From: Tetrahymena thermophila SB210
Lineage: Eukaryota; Ciliophora; Oligohymenophorea; Hymenostomatida; Tetrahymenidae
NCBI RefSeq assembly: GCF_000189635.1
Contig: NW_002476178.1
Coordinates: 478,725 to 542,724 of the forward strand
Length of the DNA stretch: 64,000 nucleotides
Direction: 5' to 3'
The translations under genes were made by a program, and so were the position numbers. The first letter of the stretch is position 1; each line of letters starts with the position of its first letter. The notes beneath the pieces are model-generated. The model had not been told where the DNA came from. It was given only the letters and a program-made list of their open reading frames with translations, and did not search any database. This document shows, piece by piece, positions 933-64,000 of the stretch.

Positions 933-3123
933 ATGATATCGAGGAAATAAATAAACTATCTATAAGGAGATGAAGATACCCACAAAGATCTAGCTTTAAG
1001 TTCTATAGTTATAGGCTCTAATATTAATATAGAAAGAAACTAAGAATAAACTCCTTCAAATAATTCAAAAATCGAACAAAATAATGCCTAAAATAATGAA
1101 CAATTAAATGAATTTTTAGAAGATGTGTAGTATGATGATTAAAAGGGCTACTAAGTAAAAAGCTTGAATAAATTTGAAGAAAAGGAAGATATAGAAAATT
1201 AAAAAGATAGATATGAGTTATAAAGGCTTAGCACTACAGCAGGCTTATTGGAAGATGAATACTTTGGCGAAGACTCTGAAAAGAAATAAAATAAAAGAAG
1301 CAAATATATTAATCCAGATATGTTTAATAAATTAAGAGATCATCATGTTGATTGGGATTATAATGTATTTTTTGAGATATTTTGGTATCATATTTTAAAT
1401 TATATGCTTATTGGGCCTTTCGTCACATTGGTTTATTACAAAAAAAGAGTACTTATGCGAAATTTGCAATTTTGGGGCAATACTTAAGCATTTTACATAC
1501 AAACAACTTTTTTTATTTTTAACGTATTTATAATCACTCTTTACTTTACCTCTTCCAGTTAAAATATATACCTAGTAGAAATTATATTCACATTCTTTAT
1601 TATGATTCTTCGTTGCTATATTATAGCTTGCAAGTATATTTTTATAAATTAATTTATTTAACTAAATATTAAGCATATATTTTTTTTACAAGGTATGCAA
1701 CCCTTCATCCTGATAAAATCAAACTTTATAGAGATTATGTATTAGATGTAAAATTAACAATAACAGATTACTACCTTACAAACTGGAAAGATTAAGATGA
1801 TAAAACATTATATAGAGAGACTTATAATGCTCTATAAAGAGGAGAATTTGATCCATCTATGTTTTATATATCGTAAGTTATTATTAATACTTATTTAAAA
1901 AAACTAAACTCTTTAAAATTAAACAAATAAGATTTTTTGTTGAACCTTCTAAGTAAGCTGCTGATGAAATGAACGAACTGAATTAAAATATTAGTAAACA
2001 CCACTCTTATACTACAGTTAAATACTAGCCTAAATGCATTTTCCCTGTTTAATAGACATAATATTTTTATGGATATTCTGTACTTGGATATTTGATTAGA
2101 TAGTATAGTAAATAAAATCGTGGTTCATCTCAAATCCTTCAGGCACTTATATTAGCTGGAATCAGAACAGCTGGACCTATAATATATAGATATATATACA
2201 GAGAAAATTTTGAATTTAGAGGAATAGAAATTGCCTAACTAGTAGCTTTATCGATAAATACATTTTTTGGATATTTATTCTCTTTCGTATTTTTATTTTT
2301 TTACATTCGTGATATGAAACTCAAAGATTTTATGCTAAATTAATGTAAGTTAATGCTTTAAGTTAAAAAAATTCATCTAAGTGAGAAAAAAGTACTTCCA
2401 ACTGTTGATATTATAAACCCTTATTCATTAAAAGGTAAATTTTTTTAAAAATTATTAAATGGTAAATAATAATTTATTTATTATTAAGGTTGGTCAATTT
2501 TGAGAAGAATCTGTTTAGATTATGGCAAATAATATGTACTTAGAATGCAAGCTTATCTTACAATTTACTTTTTTTCTATTTTTATCACAACTATAATTCT
2601 TATTTTGTGGGTCTTAAAGATATATAAGCTTGATAACATATACCCTATTATGTGCTTATATGAACTTATTGTTACTTTTTCAATATTGCTAGCCATATTA
2701 TATTAAGGTTGCCTTTTAAATGAATGTTTTGAATATTATAAAAATACTCTAGGTGATCACAAGGTTTTATTTTTAGATATTATGAGAATGAAAAATGTTT
2801 ATTTTAAAGATTAAAATTTTGTTGCTTCAAATTTTGTTCTTAAAAAGAGCTTAACAAAAATTAAATAAATTTTAAAAATTTCTGATTAAACTAAAACCCA
2901 TGACGAAAATATTAATGACTATCTTAACTAGCTTATGAATAGCATATCTGATTGTGAAAATGAAGTTGATTAAGATTTTAGAAACTAACCTTTTACATTA
3001 TATGGTATTACCATCACTTTAACACTGTTTTAATAGTTAGTAATTGCTTTACTAACAGTTGTTGCTGGTTTTGTCCAAATTTATTTATTTATTAATAATA
3101 AAATTTCAACTTCATCATTATGA
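933..3123 (+). CDS. Multi-pass transmembrane protein of unknown function
   Basis: I do not recognise the family. Read in the ciliate code it has four exons (933-1633, 1693-1872, 1932-2434, 2489-3123) joined by GT..AG introns of 54-59 bases, all splice phases agreeing, giving 672 residues. The N-terminal ~140 residues are hydrophilic and Q/N/E/D-rich. Hydrophobic helices follow: about three in the first half (one around F-V-T-L-V-Y-Y, then F-F-I-F-N-V-F-I-I-T-L and I-I-F-T-F-F-I-M-I-L), more near L-I-L-A-G-I-R-T-A-G and F-G-Y-L-F-S-F-V-F-L-F-F, a pair in the third quarter (I-Y-F-F-S-I-F-I-T-T-I-I-L-I-L-W), and one at the C terminus. There is no signal peptide, no Cys-rich module and no channel or transporter signature that I can see. 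Large families of unnamed membrane proteins like this are usual in Tetrahymena. Start choice: first ATG of the open frame. The exon model is strong; the function is unknown. Confidence 0.8.
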
Positions 3124-3713
3124 AAAATTTTGTTCTATTTTAATTTAAATGTATATTAAATATATATATATATATATAATCTGTAAAATATAAAAGATAA
3201 TATAAAATTAATTTATAATCAATTTTGTCTAACTTCAATTTTAATGTATATAAATTGTAAAATATAAAAAAACAATACAAAATATATTTTTTATTTATTT
3301 TAAAATTAATAGTTTTCTTTCAAACTAAAAAACTATTCACTTTTGAAAAACTCAAAATAATCAAAAACTTCCTTAGCTATAAAAGGATAAATAAACCATA
3401 GAATATAAAGATTAATTATGAATATTTTTTTTATCAAAAAAAACTAGAGATATCAAAAAAATTTCTTTTTATCAAGTAAGATTGATTTACTAAATATTTA
3501 AAAAATGTTTCTTTTATTTGCAACTGACTGAAAAATAAATTTATAATTATTATAATTTTGAAATTTAATTGAAAGAAATTTACTTCTATTCTAAATTTAT
3601 TATTTTTAAATGTTTTTATTTGATTAAATGGATAAAATGTATTTTAAAAAATAAAAAAATAAAAATATAAAACAAATAATTTTCATATTTGCCTCAATCA
3701 TATCATACTATTT
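3124..3713. other. Convergent 3' intergenic spacer
   Basis: AT-rich spacer between two genes that end towards each other. It should hold both 3' UTRs and polyadenylation sites. A (TA)n run lies at about 3159-3178. Nothing else is visible. Confidence 0.6.
3159..3178. repeat. (TA)n microsatellite
   Basis: About ten TA dinucleotides just after the stop codon of the first gene, in its presumed 3' UTR or spacer. Confidence 0.85.
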
Positions 3714-29574: not shown

Positions 29575-31614
29575 ATGGGAAGAAGAGATTATAAAAACAG
29601 ATCTTCTTCGCGATCACCATCCAATTAAGAGGTAGATGAGTAAAAAGATAAAAAGAGAAGATAAGATAGAGATAGATCGAGAAGAAGATCATCATCTTCA
29701 TCTTCTAATTCTCAAAGAAGAAAGGGAGATAAATAAAAGTAAAATAAGTAGCAATCAAGATCCAGATCAAAGGAAAATAAAAGTAGAAATGATAAAAAGA
29801 ACAAAAAGAAATAAAATAAGAATTAATCAAGGTCTTCTTCTTCTTAATCTTCTTCTTCTTCATCATCTTCCTCATCAGGTAGCGACGAAGAGGCTGAAAA
29901 GAAATAAGCTGAAGAATATCTTAAAATGACTAAAATGAGATAGGAAATAATAGAAAGAGAATTACAATATAAAGGAGAGGAGAATCCTTTTGGTGACAAA
30001 GATATTGCAGAAACATTAAATTGGGGTAAAAATGCCAATAATTAAAATAAATCTATTCATGAAATTATGGATGATATATAACGTGTTAAATAAATACGTT
30101 AGTAGCGTAAGGAAGATGAAAAGCGTTTAGAAGAAATGAGAAATAAGGCAATACAGGAAAGAGAGGAAGAGTAATATTAGTAATGGAAAGAAAAAGAGGA
30201 AAAGTTTCATGCATACTAGGCTCGTATAAGAGCCCTTGTGCGTATTACTCAAGGAAAAGAGACAACAGTAGATAAAATTAACAAAATTTTTTATATCTAT
30301 CGTCGAAAGATTAAATACAGTGAGCATTTAGATCCAATTATGAGCAATGTATAAGCCTTTATAAAGAAATAAGATGAAGAAGAACTCGAAAAAATATTAG
30401 CTCAGGCAATTAATCATCACAATTAATTACAAGACCCCGTAGCTATCAATGACTAATAGTATAAAGATGAAAGCGAAATAGTTAAATTTTCTTAGTTTTG
30501 GGAAAGTATAAGGTCTATCACTTAATATTATTTGGATGAATTTCGTAAGAGAGATTAGTAAAAGGAAGTGTTACCTGAGTTTGAAGAGGAAATAAAAGCT
30601 ATTTTTGAAGGTAAAAATCTGGAAGAACTTCTTGAGCTAGAAAAAGGAATCAACCAAAGTATATAACTCACAAAGTATGGAAGCTAAGAAGATCAATAAT
30701 ATTGGCAAAATATGCATAAAAGATTACAATTATATAAAGGAGATGCCATTCTAAAGAATTTTTATGATTATTTTTCTACTCATTAGAATGAGTTTCAAGC
30801 AGAAGATGCTCTTGAAATAGAAGTGGAAAATAAACCACAGCTTACTGAGGAATAATTATTAGCTGAGTAAATATAAACCGAGTAGTTAGAAGCTGAAGCT
30901 CATGTTTACTCTCCTATACTAATGCCTATCAGTGAAGAAACACTACGTTCTTCATAAACCTAATCAGAATTTACAGAGTAGGTTGTTTAACTTAGATAAG
31001 TCTATTATAACAAAATATTAAAACGAGCTTTAACAGCTTTAGAAAATAAGCGCGAAAAAGAATCTAAGCTAATAGATACATTTGTTCCCGTAATTGGTGG
31101 TTTAACAACTGTGAAACAAGATAGAGAAGATGTAGATGCTGCCACACTACATTTACTGGAAATGGAAAAGAAAAAACCAATGGAAGATGGAGAATAAGTA
31201 TTTGATGATCAGCAAGCTATTGAAGATAAAGACTATAATTGGTCTGACAAATACAAATCAAAGAAGCCTAAGTATTATAATCGTGTTAAATTAGGATTCG
31301 ATTGGAATAAATATAATAGAGCTCATTATGATTCTGATAATCCTCCTCCAAAGTACGTACAAGGTTATAAATTTAATATTTTCTACCCAGAGCTGGTTGA
31401 TATGTAAAAGACTCCAGAATATTTCTTAGAGCCTACAGATGAACAAGGATATTGTATTATCAGATTTACTGCTGGGCCACCTTATGAAGATGTAGCTTTT
31501 AAAATCATCAATAAAGAATGGGATTATGCAGACAAAAAAGGATTTAAATGTTATTTCAATCGTGGTGTTTTAACTTTGCACTTTAATTTTAAAAGAAGTA
31601 TTTCAAGACGTTGA
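29575..31614 (+). CDS. CACTIN: Cactin, spliceosome-associated protein
   Basis: Single-exon gene of 679 residues. Cactins are nuclear proteins associated with the spliceosome and needed for accurate pre-mRNA splicing, with family members also linked to NF-kB/Rel regulation in animals. Residues 1-100 are an Arg/Ser/Lys-rich region with long serine runs (RS-like). The middle contains the charged helical cactin-mid region (from about residue 165). The last ~125 residues are the signature cactin C-terminal domain: K-Y-K-S-K-K-P-K-Y-Y-N-R-V, F-D-W-N-K-Y-N-R-A-H-Y-D, N-P-P-P-K-Y-V-Q-G-Y-K-F-N-I-F-Y-P, then A-G-P-P-Y-E-D-V-A-F-K-I, finishing in H-F-N-F-K-R just before the end. The domain reaches the TGA at 31612, so the gene is full length. 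Only the ciliate code gives the continuous frame. The family assignment is very secure; the specific role in this organism is inferred. Confidence 0.96.
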
Positions 31615-37697: not shown

Positions 37698-39161
37698 TCA
37701 TTACAGTTCCATATGAGGAACATTATTTATATCTGTGTTATTAATTTAGTAATATTCATTCTATATTTGATTAAATGTCTTGCCTTTTGTTTCGATAATG
37801 AAGAATATAAGAAACACTAAAATTAGAACGTTAATCATACTAAATATTAGGAATATAGTAAAAAGATTGAATATACTCATCAAAAATGGAACTCCAAGAC
37901 CTATGAATATTGTAAACAACCAACTGTTAAGACTCATAAAAAATACATATTTTTCTTCTAAAATTTCAACTATGTACACCCAAACAACTGGCCCAAAAGA
38001 AATAGAAAATCCTAATAAATGCGTTAAAATAGCAAATAAACTAAGTAGACCTAAATTTTAATGACTTGAAATAGTTACAACTACTAATCCAATTATGATT
38101 AGTACTTCTCCTAGCAGCAGCATCAACTTTCGGCCATATCTTTCTATGTATTTAGTCGAAATTAAAGTGAATACGGTCTGCAATATTCCTAAGATCAAAG
38201 TGTAGACTTTTGCTGATTCTCCACTTCCCATCTTTTAAAATATATCATTTGAGTAGAAAATTATGATATTTATCCCAGTGAATTAGAGACTTCCACTAAG
38301 TATGAATCCCACAGCAAATCTTTTCCAAAAGGATGAAGTTGCTAAATTGCTACTTTGGCTATGATAAATGCTAGCACTTTGCAAATTTCTGAATTGCTAC
38401 ATATCTTTAATTTCCTTTATTTTAATTTGCATTTCATTTTCTGTGTGGTATATTTTAGTGAAATAAGTTTCGTATTCCTTAATATTGTATTAAGGTGGAT
38501 TTAATTTTATTTTTCTCATTAATATAATTCTAAGTAGCATAAAGAGCATAGGAATTAACTAAATTAACTAAACTCTCAGCTTGTAATTTTATATGTAATT
38601 ATTCATCTATTTATTTGAGATATTTCCAAGTTCTTCAAAATCAAATTGCTATGGTATAAAAAAGCTTAAAGTAAAGCTTATTGCTAATCCTATGGTTACA
38701 AAAAGCTGATTAAATGTTCCAGCTTTACCAACTACTTCACTTGGCGATACCTCTTTAATATAAATCACACAAATGGCAGTTTAAACTCCTGTATATATCC
38801 CACAAAGTATCCTTCCAATATAAATGTAAATTGGGTAGAGGTCAATAATCATAATGGCACATGATAAAATACCAACAATATCCATAGCACTTGATTGAAA
38901 CTTATAAGACAAACCCACTTTCTAGAAAAAAAGAGCTAGTAAAGAACCAATTATAGCTCCAATAGCTAATAAAGAATTGCACAATCCTACAAAAATACTT
39001 TTTTAGCTGGGGTCATTTTATAAATCGTTATAGTAAACTTCGTATGCCTATATTGAATTAAAAACGCCTATAAAAAATCCAAAAACTAGAGATCCTATTG
39101 AAATAATAGCTGCATATTAATACACTATGCTATAGCTATTTTAAGTAGGGTATGAGTGCAT
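37698..39161 (-). CDS. Major facilitator superfamily sugar transporter
   Basis: Single-exon membrane transporter of 487 residues from the ATG at 39161, about the usual length of the sugar porter family, which moves hexoses or polyols across the plasma or organelle membrane. About 12 hydrophobic helices are visible in two blocks of six. Family marks: Y-I-G-R-I-L-C-G-I-Y-T-G in the first half, the central L-Q-F-T-G-I-N-I-I-I-F-Y-S-N helix 7 (sugar porters have Q-x-x-G-I-N-x-x-x-Y-Y), E-R-Y-G-R-K in the helix 8-9 loop, S-F-G-P-V-V-W-V-Y-I-V-E-I in helix 10 and the closing E-T-K-G-K-T-F. The first and last differ slightly from the classical P-E-T-K-G. The reading frame stays open upstream to about 39231 without an ATG (R-D-R-Y-Q-K-G-R-I-I-N), after an AG that looks like an intron end, so the true N terminus may include one more upstream exon. 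Substrate cannot be predicted. Confidence 0.88.
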
Positions 39162-39913
39162 TATCTTATTTATCTATATGGCTTTATCTATATTTATAAT
39201 TCTCCCTTTTTGATACCTATCGCGTTTTTAAAAACCTTAGATTTAAATAATTTAATATTTATTTTTTGTTGATTATATCTTTTACGAAAAATAATACTTG
39301 AACACCTGTAAATTTTATCAATATGTAATTTTTTACATTTAAAAATTGATTGAGAGAAATATTTATTATTTTAAGTGCATTTATATAATTATTAAAGAAA
39401 TAAATAAAGAAAACTTTGAATAATATTTTATTTGTGAATCTAGTATAACGTTAGAAACAAAAGATTTAACCTTAAAAATAAAAAGTATTCAAACAAAATA
39501 AAAGATAGTAATAGAAATTAAAAATATTTAAAATAGAAGAACTTCGTTTATTTTTGGTTATTTAAATTTTAATATAGAGAGATAATGCAGGCCTAGCCTT
39601 TATATTTCTGCGAACTTTCTTCAATATATTTCGCAATTGTAAGTTGAGCTTTGAACAATACTTAAATCTATTGAACATTTTTAATCTATCATTTTAAAAC
39701 TAATAAATAAAAAAAATAATGATAATATTTCAATTAAAAATCTTGGCTTAGGTTTTGATATTTCATTCTAATATTTTTTTCTACTCCCTTGAAGTTGATT
39801 GTATACAAAATAAAAATAAAATAAAGAAATATAAAAAATTAAAAATTAATTAGTCAAACACATTTAGGTATAAATATTATAATTCATAAAGTATACAAAA
39901 TATATAGAATAAA
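39162..39913. other. Divergent spacer, with a possible extra 5' exon and a possible small ORF
   Basis: About 750 bases between the divergent transporter and RNase-kappa-like genes. The first ~70 bases may be coding for the transporter (open frame without ATG). Around 39588-39665 the GC content rises and both strands offer a short coding-like stretch: on + M-Q-A-Q-P-L-Y-F-C-E-L followed by a gtaagt, on - A-Q-L-T-I-A-K-Y-I-E-E-S-S-Q-K-Y. I cannot extend either into a full gene. The rest is AT-rich and featureless. Confidence 0.45.
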
Positions 39914-46187: not shown

Positions 46188-49100
46188 ATGAATTACTCAT
46201 CCATGATTAATTAAAGCAAAATTAAGAATAGCAAAGTCAGTTTTGAAGCTTCATAAATTTAAGGCAAAAACAATATAGATAATTCTTAGAATACTTCTGG
46301 TTTGGGAACTAAATTTAGTTATACTGACCCTTTGAGCTAAGCTTATCTTAACAAGGCTAAAAAAAAACCAGAAATAGATAAAGCAAGTTTTTATTCAAAT
46401 AAATATGCTGTGCCAATAGTCTAAACTGATGTAACTCAGATTATTGAAAGCTAAATTAAAGAAGACAGTTAAACAGTGTCATAAATAAAGCTAAATGCTA
46501 CCTAGAATACAAACAGCCTTCGTAAATAGGAGAAATTACAAAATAATTTGAGACTTTAATAGAAATTAGAATTTAGTAGATAAAGATTTTTATAAGAAGC
46601 ATAAGAAAACCTTAGCTTTAATAAGTTATAAGATATTTCTATTACTCCAGCATATCAATATTCTGAATCCTTAATTAACTAGATGAATTAAGCAAGAGAA
46701 AATATGATGAACGCAGAATTCAAGCATAGCAATTTGTTAGAAGAAAATATTAGTTTGAAAAAATAAATTTAATTACTAAAAGATGGAATTGAATTGCAAA
46801 ATATTAGATTTAAATACTACATTTAGTCTGCTTACAACATGCTTAGAGGCAACAGTATTTTTATTCTAGATGAAAGGTTATTTTATATTTTGCTTAAGAG
46901 TCTATTAACAGACTTAGAAGCATAAAAGGTAAATTTTAATTAGAAGTTAGTTGCTACTTTAGATGCAGTAAATCAGAAAGTAACTCAAAGTAGTAAATCT
47001 CTCTAGAGTTTGATTGTAGATAACGAAACTGTATTAAAATTTTTAGATCATGATTTAAATTTAGAGCATTTCAATACTCATTTAGCAGCTGAAACTTTAG
47101 AATAGCTGGAAAAATAGGAAGAAGGAAAGTAAGAAGCTATTATAAAAGCTTTACATTCAGTTATTTCAGAAAAAGTAATGGAAATAGAAAAATATAGAAT
47201 AGCAGATAACAATAACAGACAAATAATCAGCTTGCTAACAGCAAAAAGTGAAGAATATGAAAGACATATTTAAAGGATGATGATCAGCGCAGAAACAGAA
47301 CCTCTTAAAAATAATTTAAAGAGAATTATTGAATTAAAAAAAGATAATGATTTATTAGTAGGTGAAAATGAGAGTTTGAAAAAGATTATTGAGCAATATG
47401 ATGATTCTAATAAAAATTTAATTAATGAAAATGATTATTTGCAAGAAAAATGCATAATTTATAGTAAAAAAATATTATAGCTTCTATTAGATACTAACAT
47501 GAACGAAGAAGCAATAAAAAATTAAATGGACTAAATTCTTTAACAAGAAAATCTTGATTTTTACTTGAAAAAAAGAAATATGGAATTTATTAAAGAAAAA
47601 TACTCTGAAAATAGCGAGGTATAAAAAAAAAATGCTGTTTAAGGGTAGGAAATAGAAAGTTTATAATAATAAATTGAATTAGCAAATAAAACAATAGAAT
47701 AGATGGAAAAGAAATTAATTGATTAAACCTAAACCAAAGGATCTATCCCTGGAATTATTAATTTAGATGACACTAATTAGCTTTAACATACTATTTAACA
47801 GCTTTCTTTGATTCTTCTTTCCAAGGATAACGCAGTCAAAGTTGATTAGACAACATAGAGAATTATTAAATAAATGTTTTCAGAAAATTTCGATCAGGTA
47901 TTTCTTTATTTTCTATTTTTTTTTTTTAAAGTAATTTATTTTTAAATAGATGGTAGAATTCCAATAAGAAACAATAGATAATCTAAAGATAAAACTGAAT
48001 GAAGTAGAATAAAAGTACTTCTAAAGTGAGTCTAGGAGAATAGATTATCTAAATATTTCTTTTTATTTAAGTAATATTCTTGTCAGTATTTTAGATTCAT
48101 AGAAGGAGAGCTAAATAAAGGGAAAGTTGTAGAAAGAAAGAAATTAAATAATTAATTTTTATGGAAAATGTGTATAAGACTTTTAAGACCTAATTAAGCT
48201 ATAAAATCCTAAAAATATAAATCCTATTAATTAATGGTACGTCAATAAGCTAAAAGATAATTAAGAATAATCTATGAGAGACTCACAAAATTTAGAAAAA
48301 CTTAAAAGTGCTGATGAAAATATTCTATCTGACTTGACAATACTTTAGTAAATGGGAGTTAAACCCCTGTAAGAATATATTAATATGAGGATAGGCAGAG
48401 TTGAAGAAGAAAATGAAAAATTAAAAGAAAACCTAAAAAATATCAAAAAAGAGAATGTGACTGTAGCTGAACTGAAAAAGTAAAGACTTTTAGATGAAGA
48501 AAGGTATGAAAGATTGAGCAAAAAATTAAAGTCATTCTGCTAAGACAATATTTTTACTGCAAGTGAGAATAACGATTTAATAGGTCATTATAATGAAGAT
48601 TTTTTGCTCACTATGTTCATTCAGGCTAACACTATTGAGGAGATGATAAGCAAAACCCTTGAAAATGATGAAGAAGATGTTCACTCAAGACCTTCTGTAA
48701 CCAATGATAATAATTAAATATAAAAATATGACTCGTAACGAGATTCTGATCCCAGAAGCAACTTACCTCCAGTGTTAAACCACAGCATCATTGAAGAAAA
48801 ACCAGGGGAAGAAGATGAATTCATTGAAAATGGTAAAAGGGTTAAAGTCAGAAAGAGCTTTAGAAACTTATCTAGCTCCGGCCATTCTTAGTAAGAAGCA
48901 AACCATTAAAGAGAAGGAAGTGGATAAGGTTTTGATTAAAAAATTTAAATTAATATTTCAATATCATCACCTGATAGATCATTTTCCTCGTCTTTTAGTG
49001 GATAAGCACCTGCAATCGAAAACTAATCACAAAAAATGCAATAAATTGAAGATAACTACCCAAAAAAGCAATAAAACTAGTAATAGGCAATATCTTAAAA

Positions 49101-50409
49101 ATAATACGAAGAGGATATGAGCTATAATAAGCAATATACTAACAGCATTGGATAATATGGATAAGATTCAGATTCTGTTACATCCAGATCATCAGTAAAC
49201 ACAATCTAGCAAAACTAATAAACACAAGTACCATCAAAACCAACAAAATCATTTTTTGAATATTAATAACAATAGTTAATTATGTAAAATTAACAACAGT
49301 AATTGTTTAAAAATGTAGAATAACAATAAATATAGTAATAGAGATAATTAGACTAATAATATAATAATTAATAAGAACAATAAACTTTTATCTCTAATTC
49401 TCAAACTCCTTCATTCAAGAACACTCCAAAATCAACAAACAATAATTCTTTATCAAATATTCAACAATTAAGCATTACTCAACTACAATAAAATTTCTCT
49501 AATGTTAGATAAAATTTAGAAAATGAAGAATATATTCCCAGAGTATAAAAACCCACTTAATATGTTTAACAATTGAGTAATTAAATTTAAAGTAATGAAG
49601 AAAAGCAAAGGAGTAATAAAAGTAGCAAGCAAAGTAGCATCCACCAATCATAAGAAATGAATGAAATAAGCAAATAGAATATTAATTAACAAATTATCAA
49701 TGAAAAATTAAATAATCAGTAATAATAAATGAGATAAAAAGAAATTTAAGATCTAAAAAGATTTAGTGCATAAAGTACCATACAGTAGTTTATTGATCCT
49801 TAATTCAAAAAGAGATCTAGTGAACCATAAATAATATAGGGTTATTTTAATAAAGAAGAAGCTATGAATAACTTGTTGCAATCTCCTAAATAAAAAACAT
49901 CTAATTCATAAGTAATTTCCTCTTAGAATAATAAAGACGTATTATCCCTATCAAAAAATAGCTAGGAAGGATAAAAAATATTTCAAGACACAATAGGCTA
50001 GATTTCAGATATAAAACCAACATCGAAAAAGATGATAGATGATGATAATAAAACTTCTTTTAATGAAGATCATTTTGAGATGCTTTTTGGAAAAAAAAAT
50101 GAAGAAAGTATAGATTAATAAGTTGATAATAGTGATGATGAAAGTCCACGCTAAAACCATAAAAATTACATTCACATAGAAAATCGTAAATAAAAATAAA
50201 ACATGATGTAATAAGGAGATTCAGATAATGATTATGGATATAACGAAGATAGAGAATCCGAATTTAATAATTATGACCCTTAGTCAGATGAAGAGGGATA
50301 TGATTAAGAATAAAGTTAATAATATAAAGAAGATGATGATGAAGATGATGAAAATCATGATAATGACTCTTTAGAATAAGAGGCTCCTTATTTAAATTAA
50401 AATAAATGA
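46188..50409 (+). CDS. Coiled-coil protein with Q/N-rich, acidic C-terminal tail
   Basis: Two exons (46188-47897 and 47950-50409, both multiples of three) give 1,389 residues. Unrecognised family. Residues 1-130 are polar with low-complexity Ser/Gln. From about 150 to 760 there are long heptad-like stretches rich in Glu, Lys, Leu and Gln (for example N-L-K-R-I-I-E-L-K-K-D-N-D-L-L-V and E-E-E-N-E-K-L-K-E-N-L), predicting parallel coiled coil. A disordered region of ~550 residues follows, very rich in Gln, Ser and Asn, and the protein ends in an acidic block (E-D-D-D-E-D-D-E-N-H-D-N-D). No membrane segment or enzyme motif is seen. A cytoskeletal, basal-body or scaffold role fits the composition but is a guess. 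The start is the first ATG of the coding-like frame; the frame is open a little upstream, so an earlier start cannot be excluded. Confidence 0.8.
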
Positions 50410-51286: not shown

Positions 51287-54200
51287 ATGAATAAGCAAAG
51301 TTTGGGAAAGTTAGAAACATTAATGAAGGAGGTGGAGCAAAAAAACCACTAAATTCATAAAAATATAGAATCATCAGAGTAATCATAAAGAGAATAGAGG
51401 ATCATAGATTAATAAGCAACTGCATATAACCTTCCTAGATCTAGTTATACTTCTTAGTCGCCTGAAAAGAGGAATTTTTAATAATCAGATTAGAAGAATA
51501 GAATATAAACTTTTGGATAAACTAGCAGTTATAGTAATTTAAAAAGCAAAATAGGATTCAGCAATGATTCTGCAAAAAATCCATATATTTAAGGAAGCCA
51601 CTCTTCTTCTGTGGAACGCAAAAAGATTTCATTTACTCCTAGTAAAGATTAAATGACATTAACAAATTAGAATTAATAGCAGTAGAGTTCTATTGTTTAA
51701 GTTGTTTAAACTTAAAATAGCAGTAGGATACCAAAACTACCTATTTCAGTAAGCGGAAATGGAGCAAATTCTATTTCATAAACTATTCCTATAGTTGTTT
51801 AAGCAAGATGTAAATTATAAATGTTTTTAATTTAAATTTATCTAAAGATGTCCTGAAGTTTTTAATATTTTTAAACAAGCATATTTTCATTGTTTTTTTT
51901 TCAGAATCATAATTTTTATTTTGAAAATGATAGCAAGAAGTAGAGATAACAATTAATAAACTCAAACAGCAGAGCCTAAAGTTCATGAAAGATAAAATCA
52001 ATTAGAAATAGAAAGTACTCCACTTTAAGCTAATACTAGAAATCATGAAAGAAAGCACTAGCAATAGCGTATAGCCCCTTCATAAGAATAGCAAACGAGT
52101 TTGGAAGTGATGAAATAGGAGCATGAGTTATTAGAGAAGAAATACTCTAAGAAATAAAATTAAGTGAAGGAGTTAATTGTTTTAGTAACTCAGAAGGAGA
52201 AAGAAATTAAATAATTAAAGAGTTAATAATAGAGTATTTAGCAAAATAAAAATTAATTAATTTCTGGCAATGATGAAAAATAAAATTAAAATCATGCTTT
52301 TGGAAATTGTGTTTTGAATGATCAAAAATTGTTTGATTATTGCTTATTTTTAGAAGGATAATATCGCAGACTTGAGAGGAAAGTAAAGAGAAAGTCTAGA
52401 GAGATAGAAATACTTAGAAAAGAAGTTAAACCTGCTGTATATCAAAAAATTCATCAGGAAATTTAAAATATGAAATTTGAAGAGTGTGAAGAAGATTATA
52501 AATGGTTAATATAATTTTATAATGGCAGGAATATACCAACACTTAGCTAAAATAATATTTCATCTTCAAAAGAACTCTATACCTTAAGCAAGCAAATGAT
52601 GCAAGAGCAATCTGAGAATTTTAAGGAACTTAGAAAAAAGCTAAAAGAACAAGAAAAGATAATAAATAAGGAATAAGAAATCATTGTGAAGGAAATGGAA
52701 AGAAATCTTAAAAATTCTAAGGATGAGCAAAAGAAATATTAGATTTAATATGAAAACAAGAAGAAAGAGATTATTTAAATCAAGTAGAGCTTAACTATTT
52801 AAATCAACACTTTATCTCAATAAGTTGATTCTCTTAAAAGTGAAAATAGTTTACTCAAGCAAGAGATATAAAATATAAACATCAATCGCTAAGCTGAGTT
52901 AAATGAATTTGAAGAAGTCAAATTGTAACTAGAAAATGCTGAGCATTAATTATTTTAAATTCAAAGAGAGTACTAAACCAAGATTGAGGAAGTCAGCGAA
53001 AAAAAGTATGAAAACAGCTAAAATCATATTACAGTTTCTCAACTAAATGACCAAATCAATAGATTAAATCAAGAAAATGCAAATCTTCTTAAAGAGAAAG
53101 AATAAGTATTACGTAAATCTGAATCTGACAAAATGCGTATAGAAGAATTCTAATTAAAGCTTTCAAAGGTAAATGAGGTTTAGGAATAATATTAGTTAGA
53201 AATAAGATAGCTTTCAGTAAAGTTAGCAGATAAGGAAAATGAGATTTATGAAAAAATGCAAGAAATAGACTAGCTAAGATAGATTAGTAGTAATGATTTG
53301 GAGATTTAGTAGTTAAAAGAAGAAAATTAGAATTTAATTGATTAGATTAACTAATTACATGAAGCACAATAAACATTGGCCATACATAATGTGTAAATCA
53401 ATGACGAGTTACGCAGATTGCAATAGTAGAGCTCAGTTAATGTCTAGTAAATAATTATTGAAAAGACTTAGATTTAAGAAAGGTATACATACATCTTGAA
53501 AGAAATAGAAGAAAAAAATATCATCATCCATCAATATGAAGAGAAAGAAGATCAATATCAAGCAGAGGTTATGAATTTTACTAAGTAGTTGGAGAATCTT
53601 TAAGAGAAATATGATAGAATGAATGAAGAATTCGATGATTTATTGAATGAAAAAGAATAATTTTTAATTTAAATTTAAGATTTATAAAATAAATGCTAAC
53701 ATGAATAAGAGATAAATTAAAAATACTTAGATCAAATAGGAAAATACAAGCAAGATGATATTGATTAGTAAAATAGAGAGAAAAAGTACCTTAAAGAAAT
53801 ATAAAAACTCAAAGATGACATCGATTAGCTGTCAAAGTAAAGCAAGAAAAATTAACATGAAAATAATGAAGAAATCAAAGCTATGTTGACTTCTTTGCAA
53901 ACTAAAAATGAGAAACTGGAATAAGAAAATGCATAAATATTGTAAAGTAGTTAAGAATAACAAAATTAATTGTTAACTAATTTAGAGATGCTTACTTAGC
54001 AAAATATTGACGTATAAAATAATTTGGCTATTTTAGAAGAAGAAGTCAATTAAAAGGACTTGAAAATACAGCAATTAGAATAAGAATTGCAGCTATCTGC
54101 TTAAAAAATTGAAACATTTTTGAGTCTGTAGCAATAATATTTGTAATATTTTCAATTTTTATTTATTTTAAATGATTTTAATTAAATATTAATTTAGAGC

Positions 54201-57200
54201 TGAAGAGGAAAACAAAATAAAGCATGCATAGAACTAAGCCTTATTAAAACAGTAAGAATAGAAACTGGAAATAATAATCGATGATTTGAAGAACAAGATA
54301 GATAAGCTAAATTAACAAATTAAAGATCAATAGTATGAAAATAAGGAGGTGAAATTTGAATTAGAAAAATGCAGAGAAAGTAAAAAAGAATAAGAAGAAA
54401 AACTGTAAAAGTAAAAAGATAAAAATAAAGAACTTAAATAAAAAATTACAGAAATTGAAGCATTAAGTGTCAAATAAATTTCATAGTTATAGTAACAAAT
54501 TTCATAATATGAAATCTAAATCAAAAATTCGCAGAAGGTTGAACAAGACTTAAAAGATAAAATCACAGAAATAAAAGAAAAACTCTCTTAAAATCAATTA
54601 GAGCTTAGTAAACAAAAAGAAAAAAGTAGTAGTAGCAGCAGTAGTAAAAATGTTCTAAGAAGTGAATACATTTAAGAAATTGAAAAATATTAAAATCAAA
54701 TTAAAGAATTGAAAAACAACCTTGATGACAAAGAAAGAGAAACAAGAAAAATATTAACTGAATATAATGAGGCCAGGAATAAGATACTCTCTTATCAAAC
54801 AGAATAACTCGAAAATGAGGAGAAAATAGACAAGTTAAAAGAAGAACTCAAAGTTAAATCTAATAAATTAAATTAGTAATAAGAAACTATAGACTAGCTC
54901 CAATAAGAAATCTAGAAGAAATAAAACATCATCATGAGTGGCTCAAATAATCTGAATAACAGTTAAATAAGCTAAATCAATGGAAATAGCAATCAAAGAA
55001 GATCACTCAATAACATTATTGTAGATGAGAGTGGAATAAATAATACAAATCATGTCTCTTAACTGAACCAATAAATTAATGATCTTTAAAATTTATTACA
55101 AGAGAGAGAAAATATAATTAACAATTTAAAAGAAGAAAATAAATAGATTTAAGACTTCTATCATTCAGAATAGCAAGAAAAGGTCAATCAACTAGAAAAT
55201 TAGTACTAATAAATTGAAAATCAAATTAAAGAGAGGGATGATAAGATTGCCTACCAATCCTCTCAACTTGATCAAAAGTCAAAAGAAATTCAACAACTTA
55301 ATGATAGGATAAAGTAAATTACTTCAACAAAAGACCAAATTACTTAATAATACAGCAAGCTTTAAGAAAATAACTTGAAGTTACATGACTAAAACGTTGA
55401 GTTAACTGCTAAGCTAGAAAACTTCTAACAAGAGTTTTAAAAAATAATTGTTAAAGTAATTTTTAATTATTTTATTAAAATATTATTTATTACTATCGTT
55501 TATTTTGCTAAAATTCTAATTGAAAGAGTTAAATTTATAATTTTATTAAAACATTAGGTTAAGGAATAAGAATAAGCAACCAATTATAAAGATATGATCA
55601 TTCAGTAATTAGATGATAAAATAAAAGAATTGGAATAGGAAAAGCAAGAGGCTGATAAGGTTATAGACAAAGTAAAATCAAGCAAAAAGGACTAATTGAA
55701 TGATGCCTAATAACAATAAAAGAATTTATAAGCTAATAATGAGTAAAAATAAGCTTTGATTGACTAACTCAGCGCAAAAGTTGGTAAATAATAGAAATAG
55801 GTTGAGGATTTAGAAGTTTAATTATCAGAGACTTAAACTAAAATAAAATAATTATAAGATCAAGTTAATGATTTGGAAGAGTAAAAGTAAAACAAAAATG
55901 AAAAATTGCAAGAAAAGGAAAAGGAATTATTTGCTGTTCTATCTAAATCTAATGAAAAAGAGTAAAATTTAGAAAATTAGTTAGAAGATGTTCGTAGGAA
56001 ATTGAAAGAAGTAGAAGATAACTTGCAAAAAGCTCTTAATACCATAGAATAAAAGGAAACTGAACTAAAGCTAATTAAAGAGAGGTTAACTAAATCAGAA
56101 AAATCTGAAAAGAAACTAGAAAAAGAAAGAAATTAAAAGAGTGAAGAAGTTTAATAGCAATAAAAAGATGTAGAATAATTGTAATAGAGAGTTTAAATTT
56201 TAGAATAATAAAATTCAGAATATGGAAAGATTATTTAAGGAAAAAGTAATGATTATGATTCAATAATAAAGAGTGTTCATAAAGAACTAAATACATAAAT
56301 AGAAATTGTTTAAACCCATAAAACACTCTTAGATAAAGAGTAAAGCGAGCATGAATAAACTAAGAAAGAATTCGAAGATTGGAAGAATAAGCTATAAAAA
56401 AGTTAAGAAGAGAATAGATTGAAAACAGAAGAGATTTAAAATATCTAAGACTAGCTTATAGATACACAAAATGAAATAAATTCTTAAGAGGAAACAATAA
56501 AAAATCTAAATAATTAATATGAAAATTTATAAAAATAGAATGAATAATTAAATGAGGAACACAATAATTTAAAATCTAAATTGACTTCTTTGAACGAAGA
56601 ATATTCATTTAAGATAATAAGAATGGAAGAAACAATTAAAACACTTGAAGAAGAATTGAATTAGCTTAAATAAAATAATTATGACTTATAATAATTGATT
56701 TAAGAGAAAGATAATCTTATTCAAATAAACATTACTAAAATTAATTAATATGAGTAATAAATTATCAATTTCTAAGAAATTATTTAAGACTAGCAAGATC
56801 AAGCTTAAATTTAAAAGCAATAAATAGAGTTGCAGGCATAAACATAGGAAAGCACTTTAAAAAAGCAGAATGAATAAGTTATCGCTCAAATTAGAGCTGA
56901 ATTAGTTAAAGAAAATCTTTAAAATATCTAAAATTGTAAAGAAGAAACAGAAATCCATTTCCAAAATATCTTGCAAGAAAAAGAATAATAATATCAAGTC
57001 TTATTCTAGCAAACCACTTAATCATACGAATCTAAAATTATCTTAATATAACAAGAATTCTAAGTAATATTACAATAAAAATTAGAAGAGCTTGAGGCTG
57101 CTTAAAGTGCTATCTTGTAATAAAAGCTAAATGAGCAAGAAGCACAACATTAGAAGGAATTGTAAAAGCTATTGAAAAATTAATAAAACGAACTACAAAG

Positions 57201-60200
57201 TAAATTTTAAGAAGAAATGAAACATTTAGAAGCACAGTATTAAGAAAAATTGAATGAGTAGAGTGAGAACCATAACAAAATATTGAGTGAACAAGCTAAG
57301 TAAATTTAAAATAGTGAAAATCAAAACTTGTCATAAAAGATTATCGATTAATAGACTTAATTTGAATAAATTTTATCACAAAAATTAAAAGAATCTGAAG
57401 AAATTCATAATTAAATTTTATAAGAAAAAATAAAGGAGTGTGAAGGCAATTTCTAGCTTATTCTTTAAGAAAAAACAATAGAAATTTAAAATGAATAAAA
57501 TAAGGTTTTATTAGATAAACTCAAAGAGCAGGAAAGCCAACTCAATAAATAAATTCAATAAAAGCTTAGTGCAGATTTTTAATAATAAGTATAAACTTTA
57601 GTTGAAAAATAAAAGCAATAAGAAGAGAATTACAATAAAATAATTTAAGAAAAGGATTAATAAATTGCAAAAATGGATGAAATTTTGAAAGTTAATTCTT
57701 AAGAATTCTAGCAGGTCTTATAAGAAAAAGAGGCATAGATATTAGAAATTACAAATAATATTAATATCATTTAATAATAAAATAATATATAAATTTAACA
57801 AATTAATTAATAGCACAAGTAGGAAATAAATGAGATAGTATCCTCTAAAAATGAAATTACAAAATATACTAAGTCTTTAGAAGACTAAATTGCTGAATAG
57901 GAAATGAAGAATAAAGATAGAGATTAAGAAGAAAATCAATTAAAATAAGAGTTGAAAAAGCAAGAAGATAAAGTCCATGATTTAACTTAGAAGTATTCAA
58001 AATTATAAACAGAACTAGAAAATTTAAAAGAATAACACTAAGATTACGTTAAGCAGTTATAGAATTAGCACCTATAAGCTATTCAAGCCAAGGATTCTGA
58101 TATAGAAAAATTAAATGAAAATGTAAGAAATTCCAAAAAGAACTCACAAGACTTGCAGCTTCAATTATAGTCCTTGCAATAAACTAGGCACAACCTTGAA
58201 GAATAATTAAATGAATTAAGAACATTAAATAGCAAATCAGCTAATTAATAAAGTTAATAATTCTCTTAATTACAAGATGAATACAGCGAGCTGCAATAAA
58301 ACCTTTAACAAAAGAATCTTCAATTTAAATAAATGCTTAATGAGCATGAAAGCGAAAAGAGTTAATTGAATGAAAAAATAACTAAAATTGAGAAATAATT
58401 GAAGGATAATTAAACTATTTGCTAAGAACATTAAAACTTAATAGAATAAAACAATTTAAAAATAAAAGAGTAGCAATAAAAAATTAAAGAGTATGAAAAC
58501 TAAATTAGCTAAATGCAGCAATAAAATGAAGAATAAGCTAAAATACAATAAAAAGAATAAAATAATTTAGATAAAGAAATAGAAAAATTGAAAAAGCATA
58601 TTGAAAGCAATCAAAAGGAAGCTGCTGAATAGCAATAAGAACTAATTAAGAAGCATCAGTAAGAAATTGATAACATTCAAAATTAAAATGATATTCATTT
58701 GTAATAACAATTAAATTAACTGAAATAATAATATGAGGTATAAATTTAATAGATTACTAAATAGTAAAAAGAAGAGGCACAAAAACACAACTAATCAAGT
58801 GAATAACAAATTTAATAAATAACTGCTAAATATTAACAAGATATTTAAAATATCGTTTAATAAAATGAATAAAAAATAGCTGAATTAAATGAAGCCAATA
58901 AATAGTTAAGTTAAAAAGATTCAGATAACCAAATTAAAATACATTAGCTTTAACAAGAATCTGAAAATAATTCAACAAATTTTGAAACTAAAATATCTGA
59001 AAATAGTAAAATTTATGAAGAAAAAATAAGTTAAATTTCAATTACTTTTGAGACTAAAATAACTGAAATAAAATAATCATATGAAATATAAATAAATGAG
59101 CTGAAATAGCAATATGAGACAAAAATATAATCACTTTAAGAATCTGAAAAATAGACAAATGAATCAAGTAATAAAGAAAAGCAGGAATTAATTTCAAAAT
59201 TAAAGGAAGAATTCTAAAAAGAAATAGCTGAAAAGGATGAAAATCACAATAAATAAGTTAAAGAAATTTAAGATAATTTAGATAAATAAATAAATGATTA
59301 TGAATCTAAAATTAAAGCTTTGCAAGTTGATTATCAAAAATAAATTGAAGAATCAAAAGCAGACCATGAAAAAAATATTAAAGAAATTACTGAAAAATTT
59401 GAAAAATAAATTTCTGACTTAAATGAAAGATAATAGAAAGATATTGAAGGAATCTAAATTAACCACGAATTCATAATAAAAGAGTTATAAAAAAAGATTG
59501 AAACTCTAACAATAACTTTAGATGAAATCAACTAAGAAAAAGAAGATATTGTGAACAAAGCAAAGTAAAGTTTTATTTTTTTTAGATATTTTATAATTCA
59601 TTTTAAATTTAGGGAAGAAGCTGAATAAGAGATATAGAATATCGATTAGAAGTATAGAAGTTAAATTTAGCAGATGCACAAAGATCATAATGATTATATC
59701 CTTAATACAGAAAGTGATTAGTAAGATGCAATATAAACTGTTAAAGAACAATATGAGCTAGAGATTTAGGAACTCAAGCAAATGATACCTTCAGATTCAA
59801 ATGAATTAATATAAAGTAAGAAATAAAAAAATATTTCATGTTGTATTTAATTTTTTTATTACAGAATATCTTAATTAGATCAAAGAACTTGAAGAAAAAA
59901 TATAATAGCTTTAATAATAAGATACTTAGTCAAATGAAGAAAATTAAAGATTAGAGTTAACAATTATCTAATTAGAAGAAAAAATAATTCAAGTTGAAAA
60001 TAAGTATCAAATACAACTATCCAACGAAAGTGAAAGTCACAAGCAATTAATAATTGAGATAGAAACTCAAAATAAAGAAAAAATTGCAGAGTTGTAAAGA
60101 ATAGAAAATGAATTAAGAATTCAAATTGCTTCTCTTTTAGGTATGGATGAAAAACAAAAAGTTGATCAATAATAAAAAATAAATCAATAAGGTGCTGATA

Positions 60201-63136
60201 AAGAATAACAAATAGTAATCTTACAAAAAGAAATTCATACTATAGAGTCAACTTACTAGCTTAGGATATAAGAATTTGAAAAATAAATTTAAGATATACA
60301 ATTAAGGGAATCTCAGAGATATAGTTAATTAGCTTAGAGATACTTATTAATTTGTCTTGAATCAGAAAGATTAAAAAGCTCTGCAAATGAAAGAAACTCT
60401 TCTTCAGGCTCTAACACAAGTTAATATTAGAGTAGAATTAATGAATTAGAAATTCAAATTTAAAACCATATTGAAGTTATAAGTAAGCTACAGTAAGAGC
60501 TTAATATAAGCAGTACTACTATTAATCAATAAATCTAAAAAATATAAATTTATGAATAGCAAATTTAATCAAATAATTTCACAGATTAAAATCTACTTTA
60601 AAAATATCTTATTGTTTGTTTGGAGGCAGAGAGACTTAGGTAAGTTGCATTAAATTAATCATCTAAATCTATGGCTGTATCAAACTAACCTGTAGATTTT
60701 GATAAAGATTAGTAAATATCTAAACTATAAATATAAGTTTAATAATATGAACACAAAATGTCAGAACTACTCATAACAATAAATAGCAAATAAGAATTAA
60801 TATCTAAATTAGAAACAGAAATCAATATTCATATAGAAAAGGTTAGTATTCTTAATCAATAAATGCAATCATAATAAACTTAATCATCTGTTGACACTTA
60901 ACTTTTATAGAAATATCTTATAGTTTGCTTGGAAGCTGAAAGACTTAAGTTACAAAAAGGTACTTCTGGTATCAGTATTTAATAAAACTTTAATGATTCA
61001 GAGATAGAAATTTTAAAGTAAAGAGTTATTTAACTTGAACAAGAAGTTATCTACAAGTCTCAGATAATTAGTGAATTTGAAGAGAGTAAAGGTGTGAAAA
61101 GGTCCACTAAGTCAAGTTAAAATTAGGAATTGAGCTAACAGTATTTAGTAGTCTGTATGGAAGCAGAGCGTCTCCAATAGTAATTATAAAAATAAAAAGC
61201 AGATTATGAGAATTAAATAAGCGAACTGATTAAAAAAGATAAAAGAAACTAAGAATACCTCAAAATAAATGATGCTCAAATTAAGGCCTTAAATGAGAAA
61301 CTTAAATCCTCAAGCTAAAGCTCCTTAAAATCAAATCCATCCTCTCCGGTAAATGAAGATTAAGATAATAAAATTAAAGAAATTCAAGCTAAGTTAGAAA
61401 AAGCTCAAATGTAGATTGAGAGTTAAATGCAAAAAATAGAAAAACTTCACAATGAAAAAATAAATGTTGAGGATTCAAATGCTAACTTAAACAGATTTAT
61501 AAATGATTTGAAGGATTAAAAGTCTTCAATAGAAAAATAACTACATTAATTGGAAAAAGAAAATATTGAAAAATCTCATCAAATTGAAAAGCTAGAATAA
61601 GAAAAAATACTACTTCAAAAATCTGTTGAAGAGTTAGGTGAGAAATTAATTAAAATGCAAATTTAGTAAAGAGATGAAGAGGAATATGATGACTAAGTAT
61701 TCGTAGTAAATAGAAAAATGGATGCTTTAAAGAGTTTAGTAACTCAATTAGAAAGAGATGTAAAGAAGTATGTTGAAACCTCTTAAACTATGTAAAGAAT
61801 AGGTATTTCTTTATTCTCTGTCGATAGAGATTTACCTCTTGAAACCTTTGTAGAGCAACTAACATAAAATGTAAATGATGTTCTCAAATTCCTTGAACAA
61901 TAAATAGATGATAAAGATGCTTAACTTGAAGATCTCCAAAGGAACTTGTAAGCAAAAGATGACTAGATCTACTAACTCTAAAACAAGTATTTATTTATTA
62001 ATTTATTCATTTAATTTATATATAAATATTTAATTTATTGAATATCTTTTGAAATGATAAAAAGTCTTGAAAGTCATCAGTAATCATTCTTACAAAAAGA
62101 ATTCTAAACTGGAGAAGATAAAAATATGGAAAAAGTTAATGAAATTTTAGGTCTTTCTGCTATTGGTGCAGATATTGTTGAATAGAAAAAAGACTAAAGT
62201 TTCCTTTCAGACCATGACATCGAAAACATTGCTATTGAAGATAAAAAAATTTCTGTATAGATTTCCTATAGAGACAATGATGAAATATAGGAAAGAAACT
62301 CAAAGATGGGAGGTAGGCCATCATCTAATTAAGGATCAGTTTAGCATTCATATAATTAATAATCTTAAAACTAATCCTCAGTGCCAAATGTTGATAAAAA
62401 TATAAAAGAATAATATGATCATTAAATATAATCATTAAACGAAGTAACTAGATATAAAAATGTGAATAAATATCATTTAAATATATTATTTTTAATTTAA
62501 ATAGTAACATAGATCTATAAAGAGAAAATATGATAACTTATTAATAGAAAATGAAGACTTAAAAAGAAATCTTTCATCTTTCTATTCTTTGCAAGTAAAT
62601 AACCCTCTTAATCCTGCTGAAATTAATTTGATGAGACAGGAAATGGATTAGTAAAAAATGCAGCTTGACTAATTAAAGGAAGAAATTGAAGATCATGAAG
62701 AAAATGAAGAAAGGTATTAGCAACAGGTAATTCGTTAAATTAAATTGATTAATTTAAAAATTTTAATTTCTTTTTAAGTTTTTAATGAAATTTTAATTTA
62801 ATATATAAATTAATATAGATTGGATAATTAAAGAAGAAGATCTTTGAATTAGAAAAGCAGCTCAAAGAAAGTGTAGCAGGTCATTAATATTAAGCTGTTA
62901 AGGATAGCTTTTAGAATTTCTTCAAACTTCATTTTGATAAAAAGTAATTAAAATTGCTTATTCAGAGATTAATTTTTTTTAATATTAAAAGCTCTAAAAC
63001 TAACGAATTTATTAAAGCAGAAGAATATCTTAAGATCTTACTTAATTTACTAAATATCGGAGAATAATAAAAGAAAGAGTGCGTCTTAGTTTATCAGTAA
63101 GTGGTGGCTAATTCTAAAAAATTCAAATTTTTCTGA
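51287..63136 (+). CDS. Giant coiled-coil protein, telomere-proximal
   Basis: The last gene before the telomere, about 3,750 residues in about nine exons. The first intron is 51810-51933; others lie near 54.14-54.20, 55.46-55.56, 59.57-59.61, 59.82-59.86, 61.99-62.07, 62.45-62.52 and 62.73-62.82 kb. The N-terminal ~200 residues are polar and Ser/Gln-rich. Nearly everything after that is heptad-patterned Glu/Lys/Gln/Leu/Ile sequence, so the protein should be a very long rod. Four copies of a motif close to Y-L-I-V-C-L-E-A-E-R-L interrupt the rod at 60.34-61.18 kb. A less repetitive block follows (I-G-I-S-L-F-S-V-D-R-D-L-P-L-E-T-F near 61.8 kb). The C terminus (E-E-Y-L-K-I-L-L-N-L-L-N-I-G-E) loosely recalls the GRIP/GRAB domains of golgins but lacks enough marks to call. 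TGA is at 63134-63136. Golgi tether, basal-body rod or cortical fibre are all possible; function is unknown. Proteins of this type are often mis-annotated by coiled-coil similarity to myosin. Confidence 0.8.
54625..54647 (+). repeat. Polyserine trinucleotide run
   Basis: AGT/AGC triplet run inside the giant coiled-coil gene, encoding a short serine stretch that breaks the heptad pattern and may act as a flexible hinge. Confidence 0.7.
60335..61182 (+). repeat. Four diverged copies of a Y-L-x-V-C-L-E-A-E-R-L motif
   Basis: Within the giant coiled-coil gene the motif occurs at about 60341 (Y-L-L-I-C-L-E-S-E-R-L), 60606 (Y-L-I-V-C-L-E-A-E-R-L), 60914 (Y-L-I-V-C-L-E-A-E-R-L) and 61141 (Y-L-V-V-C-M-E-A-E-R-L). 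Each is preceded by Q-[KRQ] and usually a Leu. Spacing is about 230-310 bases (75-100 residues) with ordinary coiled coil between. The DNA differs at synonymous positions, so the peptide is being conserved. Confidence 0.9.
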
Positions 63137-63723: not shown

Positions 63724-64000
63724 TTGGGGTTGGGGTTGGGGTTGGGGTTGGGGTTGGGGTTGGGGTTGGGGTTGGGGTTGGGGTTGGGGTTGGGGTTGGG
63801 GTTGGGGTTGGGGTTGGGGTTGGGGTTGGGGTTGGGGTTGGGGTTGGGGTTGGGGTTGGGGTTGGGGTTGGGGTTGGGGTTGGGGTTGGGGTTGGGGTTG
63901 GGGTTGGGGTTGGGGTTGGGGTTGGGGTTGGGGTTGGGGTTGGGGTTGGGGTTGGGGTTGGGGTTGGGGTTGGGGTTGGGGTTGGGGTTGGGGTTGGGGG
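63724..64000 (+). repeat. Macronuclear telomere, (TTGGGG)n
   Basis: About 46 perfect TTGGGG units, with one extra G at the very end. The G-rich strand runs 5'->3' towards the end, as in all ciliate telomeres. A homogeneous T2G4 repeat is the Tetrahymena-type telomere; Paramecium mixes G4T2 with G3T3 and spirotrichs use G4T4. Added by telomerase after programmed chromosome breakage in the developing macronucleus. The junction with unique sequence at 63723/63724 is abrupt. Confidence 0.98.

Follow-up and report, generated by a model that had tools for sequence, protein, structure and literature searches.

A short repeated helical motif with an invariant cysteine, possibly a docking site, near the C terminus of a giant ciliate coiled-coil protein

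In a very long coiled-coil protein of a ciliate, a short motif with an invariant cysteine recurs four times, is under protein-level selection, and, with the pattern used, occurs in no other gene of the genome. Our leading reading, which we hold tentatively, is that this is a repeated short helical docking motif that may bind one partner at four places. Near its C terminus, the 3,736-residue protein would break into four units of 76 to 103 residues, each made of a short coiled-coil stretch, one or more flexible linkers rich in Ser, Asn and Gln, and one motif helix of 15 residues. Pairing of the motif helices only with each other is the main competing explanation.

The motif lies in a window of 64,000 nucleotides (C314:478725-542724), which has a G+C content of 25% and is ciliate nuclear DNA. 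Reading TAA and TAG as glutamine is the precondition for long open frames here: no frame of at least 150 residues was present with the standard code, versus 156 with table 6. A telomere repeat ends the window about 590 bases beyond the stop of the modelled gene; among the matches listed, TTGGGG repeats were also found at the start of contig C4 and again from 465612. We built the gene model from the sequence itself, placing nine introns by hand according to GT...AG and frame-keeping, and it is least certain at the start codon and at the 48-base final intron, which is in frame. The modelled protein is rich in Gln, Glu, and Lys and contains 2 Trp and 13 Cys. The motif accounts for 4 of these 13 cysteines and for all 4 in its 708-residue exon. 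In searches of the organism's own genome (101,022,631 bases, 445 contigs), an 88-residue C-terminal piece matched its own gene alone, and an 86-residue N-terminal piece matched its own gene and one weak place on contig C441 (E 0.27). Neither piece found a clear second gene, so, judged by these two pieces, the gene appears to be single-copy. The coordinates of all features are collected in Table 1.

Table 1. Features of the window (positions counted from its first nucleotide)
Feature	Position	Strand	Residues	Remarks
Cactin gene	29575-31614	+		Pfam
Sugar transporter, major facilitator superfamily	37698-39305	-		Pfam
Modelled long coiled-coil gene	51287..63136	+	3,736 aa	10 exons; hand-made splice model
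Exons 1-5 of model	51287-51809, 51934-54142, 54198-55455, 55558-59564, 59613-59815	+
Exons 6-10 of model	59865-61986, 62065-62461, 62505-62726, 62819-62943, 62992-63136	+
Exon with all four motif copies	59865..61986	+	~708 aa	4 Cys, all in motif
Motif copy 1	60329..60376	+	2889-2904	LAQRYLLICLESERLK
Core copy 1	60341-60373	+		YLLICLESERL
Ser/Asn-rich linker after copy 1	60371..60448	+	2903-2928	composition rule; predicted helix break inside
Motif copy 2	60593..60640	+	2977-2992	LLQKYLIVCLEAERLR
Core copy 2	60605-60637	+		YLIVCLEAERL
Linker after copy 2	60653..60724	+	2997-3020	composition rule; predicted helix break inside
Linker before copy 3	60842..60913	+	3060-3083	composition rule, overlapping first motif residues; predicted helix break inside
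Motif copy 3	60902..60949	+	3080-3095	LLQKYLIVCLEAERLK
Core copy 3	60914-60946	+		YLIVCLEAERL
Linker after copy 3	60950..61006	+	3096-3114	composition rule; predicted helix break inside
Linker before copy 4	61097..61147	+	3145-3161	composition rule, overlapping first motif residues; predicted helix break at start
Motif copy 4	61130..61177	+	3156-3171	LSQQYLVVCMEAERLQ
Core copy 4	61142-61174	+		YLVVCMEAERL
TGA stop of modelled gene	63134-63136	+
TTGGGG telomere repeat, chromosome end	63724..64000	+		sequence

Other parts of the protein and its surroundings have features of their own. An N-terminal block, FGNCVLNDQKLFDYCLFLEGQYRRLERK...EDYKWLIQFYNGRN (window 52299-52556), is less coil-like and holds 3 of the 13 cysteines. 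A loose [IV]-L-[QS]-[EQ]-K repeat, distinct from the cysteine motif, runs through window 56900-57800 (residues about 1800-2070) and is in places spaced by exactly 15 residues (1834/1849; 1935/1950/1965). Upstream of the gene, window 46188-50409 (+) contains a long coding stretch in two frames, coil-like in part and Gln/Asn-rich thereafter, which had no Pfam family over the cut-off.

The four copies of Y-L-[LIV]-[IV]-C-[LM]-E-[AS]-E-R-L share one open frame (table 6), exactly where a preliminary description had placed them and with the cysteine and the Glu-x-Glu-Arg-Leu invariant, as it had claimed. No further match to this strict 11-residue pattern was found across the six frames of the window. 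Successive copies are 88, 103, and 76 residues apart. In a 30-residue alignment of the four copies, L, Q, Y, L, C, E, E, R, and L are invariant. We therefore prefer a 15-residue form of the motif, L-x-Q-[KRQ]-Y-L-[LIV]-[IV]-C-[LM]-E-[AS]-E-R-L. Composition predicts 2.6e-10 matches to the 11-residue pattern per 700 residues, but this is only a rough guide, since the copies themselves supplied the pattern.

The joint motif, rather than either of its halves, is what is rare in the genome. The pattern C-x-E-[AS]-E-[R/S] matched 7 places in 101 Mb, versus 2 in the reversed control; four of the seven belong to this gene and are the only ones that read E-R, and the other three read C-[IFL]-E-S-E-S. 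Because the pattern omits some codons (e.g., CTC, TTC, ATC, GCG, TCG, and AGY serine), the statement that the motif occurs only in this gene is valid for that pattern. The front half, Y-[LF]-x-x-C-x-E, had 23 matches (12 + 11) versus 18 (8 + 10) in the reversed control and is therefore near chance frequency when taken alone. Three of the 23 are in this gene, where copy 1 escapes because the pattern does not cover one of its codons; of the 20 remaining places, none runs on into E-R-L. The back half, E-A-E-R-[LF], had 20 matches versus 6 in the reversed control, and only two of the 20, both in this gene, are preceded by Y-L-I-V-C-L. When 18 residues of copy 3 served as a protein query, only copy 3 itself came back and the remaining copies were missed; such searches are therefore insensitive here, and the rarity claim rests on the patterns. 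By these, the motif is not at chance frequency, as the earlier reading had required, and is found in one gene in 101 Mb.

Selection on the motif can be read from the codons. Over the 15-codon motif, the six pairs of copies gave pS values of 0.77 to 1.06, which is saturated, and pN values of 0.03 to 0.29. The 11-codon core differed by 4 to 7 synonymous and 0 to 4 nonsynonymous changes per pair, and the ungapped upstream flanks (40 codons) differed by 1 to 5 synonymous and 33 to 38 nonsynonymous changes. Copies 2 and 3 are identical over 15 residues and about 8 synonymous changes apart; the single nonsynonymous step counted between them arises because paths are averaged between two leucine codons. 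Since the synonymous sites are saturated and the motif is kept, the motif is under protein-level selection, as the synonymous differences had already been taken to mean.

We also compared the coil and linker sequence pairwise across five segments, one preceding copy 1, three separating the copies, and one following copy 4 (ten pairs). The coils of units 2 and 3 aligned with a Smith-Waterman score of 88 (21 of 43 residues identical), which was reached by none of 500 shuffles and none of 500 coil segments from elsewhere in the protein, and pN for these two units is 0.03 in the motif versus 0.37 in the homologous coil. The remaining nine pairs were unremarkable, with 124 to 497 of 500 coil segments scoring as high. 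Segments 3 and 5 beat most shuffles but not other coils (score reached by 22 of 500 shuffles and 124 of 500 coils), and we therefore take their likeness as one of composition. Thus, the earlier statement that the intervening coil has no similarity fails for units 2 and 3. Because these two units are alike beyond the motif, the array grew, at least partly, by duplication of whole units. With synonymous sites saturated, this duplication is old, and the coil and linkers have drifted while the motif was kept.

The surroundings of the motif are segmented. Linkers were marked by a simple composition rule, and by this rule a linker adjoins every copy and flanks copy 3 on both sides. A short polar stretch that precedes copy 2, QSNNFTDQN, was seen by eye and is left unmarked by the rule. 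Residues 1204 to 2902 yielded just four, partly overlapping hits; therefore, the motif zone is segmented and the long stretch upstream of it mostly is not. Because linkers lie next to the copies, neither a rigid rod spacing nor an unbroken coil is to be expected. Of the earlier picture, the long protein with stretches of coiled coil remains, but an unbroken coil does not, since each copy borders a flexible linker. The copies had also been called regularly spaced, which we do not find, as 76, 88, and 103 are not multiples of one period.

An AlphaFold2 model was computed for 366 residues as a monomer from one sequence without relatives (mean pLDDT 63.3, pTM 0.25). It consists of helices and breaks only, with helices at 2-65, 71-154, 165-221, 230-252, 264-294, and 303-365. 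All four copies (46-56, 134-144, 237-247, and 313-323 in the model's numbering) fall in predicted helices, and the five breaks of this low-confidence model coincide with the five rule-marked linkers. Copy 3 is given a short helix of its own, with a pLDDT of about 48. Before copy 2, the predicted helix is unbroken, and a dip in pLDDT below 50 at 123-127 corresponds to the QSNNFTDQN stretch; a linker at this place is not supported beyond that low-confidence dip. A helical state of the copies is indicated only by this low-confidence prediction, as the linker pattern is indicated only by a simple rule.

The best heptad register is identical in all four copies and places L, Y, [IV], [AS], and L at core positions i, i+4, i+7, i+11, and i+14, with the other invariants (Q, L, C, E, E, and R) on other faces. 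The hydrophobic run YLIVCL, six residues long, covers more than one helix face and would thus fit a docking or packing segment. In the docking reading, the array would be the product of an old unit duplication in which only the motif was kept. Its heptad-core face would suit pairing with its counterpart in a second chain, the invariants on the other faces would bind one and the same partner protein at four points of the molecule, and four such sites could give strong multivalent binding. The docking reading draws on the restriction to four copies, the rarity in the genome, the selection, the common heptad register, and the helix breaks at linkers, from which we infer dimer pairing, partner binding, and multivalency alike. 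Conservation within one gene implies that the segment matters, not that another protein is bound. Two further points weigh against docking, namely, the poor AlphaFold2 monomer model and the hydrophobicity ranking, in which copies 2 and 3 are among the top 25 of the protein's 9-residue windows and copies 1 and 4 are not. A more specific version, in which an undescribed tetravalent docking motif, so far seen in one ciliate gene, would hold four partner copies through a helix with an invariant and possibly switching cysteine, seems to us unlikely.

Self-association fits the within-gene conservation almost as well. The motif helices might pair solely among themselves, within the dimer or from one molecule to its neighbor, and act as staples or register keepers beside the hinges where the rod is segmented. 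The best heptad core falls inside the motif itself (L-Y-[IV]-[AS]-L), the motifs border coil/linker junctions, and a six-residue hydrophobic run would, from its sequence, be expected in bundles of at least three helices. However, the conserved off-core Cys, Glu, and Arg would need another reason, and the quality of the AlphaFold2 monomer model is too low for any reading of the packing. We regard self-association as possible, though somewhat less so than docking, which leads with self-association close behind.

The invariant cysteine could itself be the point of the repeat, if S-acylation anchored the protein to a membrane or disulfides locked its chains. Its presence in 4 of 4 copies, in hydrophobic surroundings and in an exon without any other cysteine, is consistent with such a switch, but the Tyr and the Glu-x-Glu-Arg-Leu are equally invariant and are not needed for acylation, and we consider the switch improbable.

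Kinship with a module of another gene of the same genome (contig C39, L050), LEEKVA.xT.EIERLN, is more doubtful still. In a 16-residue ungapped comparison, the two show the same spacing of L, [KR], hydrophobics, and E-x-[ED]-R-L; the motif copies rank 8, 16, 14, and 12 of 3,721, and in the reverse direction four modules rank 3, 1, 11, and 7 of 579. The tail match is built in, however, because the C39 gene was found by searching for E-I-E-R-L-N, a type of pattern with 16 places in the genome versus 10 in the reversed control. Once the tail columns are removed, the copies drop to ranks 264, 637, 634, and 501 of 3,721, and the modules drop to ranks 22 to 74 of 579; that the motif is a diverged form of this module is thus very improbable. 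The module resembles our motif in its tail and heptad register and differs in that its close copies are 25 to 28 residues apart and, in the four copies compared, have no cysteine at the corresponding place. Weak matches on contig C392, with an E value of 0.005 at best, may point to a relative. Plain duplication of a functionless coil segment agrees with the coil that units 2 and 3 still share but is strongly disfavored, since the motif is almost unchanged over saturated synonymous sites and the other unit pairs keep the motif alone.

Relatives were sought in prokaryotic and viral sequences and in the window's own genome, along with Pfam and PDB. For the open frames that cover the exons, for the repeat region, and for the four copies, no Pfam match exceeded the curated cut-off; coil-type matches fell short of it, the best being HIP1_clath_bdg in a C-terminal piece (20.5 bits versus 28.8 needed). 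No PDB sequence matched the frame with the repeats at an E value of 1 or less. Five PDB matches to a motif profile (E 1.7 to 5.2) were taken as chance: EAERL is shared by three of them, all engineered proteins, and the other two are stringent starvation protein A sequences that read LIICLEAE. In viral contigs, 59 stretches fit a peptide pattern and none was confirmed. In prokaryote genomes, 24 stretches fit and 2 were confirmed, in Rheinheimera and Arsukibacterium; these are near-identical 66-residue frames that end in LLQRYLVICLECFLEF without E-R-L and were likewise taken as chance. These results agree with the earlier remark that the motif was not recognized from a named family. In the literature searched, YLIVCLE, YLVVCME, YLLICLE, VCLEAER, and EAERL as a whole word did not occur, and among the matches listed on ciliate giant coiled-coil proteins with repeat motifs, no title concerned this motif. 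By titles, EIERLN appeared in a proton channel context only. In the passages that matched, CLEAERL occurs in human SP6 (PMC12200857) and is also found in PMC11717014.

Long coiled-coil proteins are often without an assigned function, and their sequence says little, so a short, strongly conserved repeat gives a concrete handle. The 15-residue motif can serve as a peptide bait, be mutated, and guide searches of other ciliates. Binding to a partner would make it a new multivalent docking motif; a role in self-association only would still account for the architecture of the protein's last quarter.

Short helical motifs that recur within a long scaffold protein are a known kind, and we compared the motif with several of them. 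For the Sfi1, AKAP, LD, IQ, CC1 box, LC8, and export-signal patterns, no match begins at a motif copy or beside one; elsewhere in the protein, IQ had 1 match, the export-like pattern had 32, and the others had none. SP6, a human zinc-finger transcription factor with a Buttonhead box, has the seven letters CLEAERL in common with the motif, which we take as a chance resemblance. The AKAP helix for PKA-type docking domains was rejected, as its hydrophobic pattern had no match. GRIP-domain golgins are likewise very long coiled coils with a short helix-like C-terminal end, and this likeness led us to GRIP (PF01465), which had no match in this gene. Genome-wide, PF01465 gave 7 matches at an E value of 10 or less, none of them on this contig, and Pfam at the same threshold found no GRIP in the last 95 residues of the protein. 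The one match over the cut-off, on contig C82 (L042), is perhaps the genome's trans-Golgi golgin. The centrin-binding repeats of Sfi1 are, as here, a hydrophobic helix repeated in a long protein, but they are spaced by about 33 residues versus 76 to 103, and the pattern [AS]x7LLx3[FL]x2[WF] had no match in the 3,736 residues. Paxillin LD motifs are several short LDxLLxxL helices that are separated by long flexible linkers and dock to helical-bundle domains. The LD consensus is unmatched here (no match to [LV][DE]x[LM][LM]xxL in the protein), and the spacers of our array include coiled coil. The two systems have in common several copies of a short amphipathic helix with nonconserved stretches between them.
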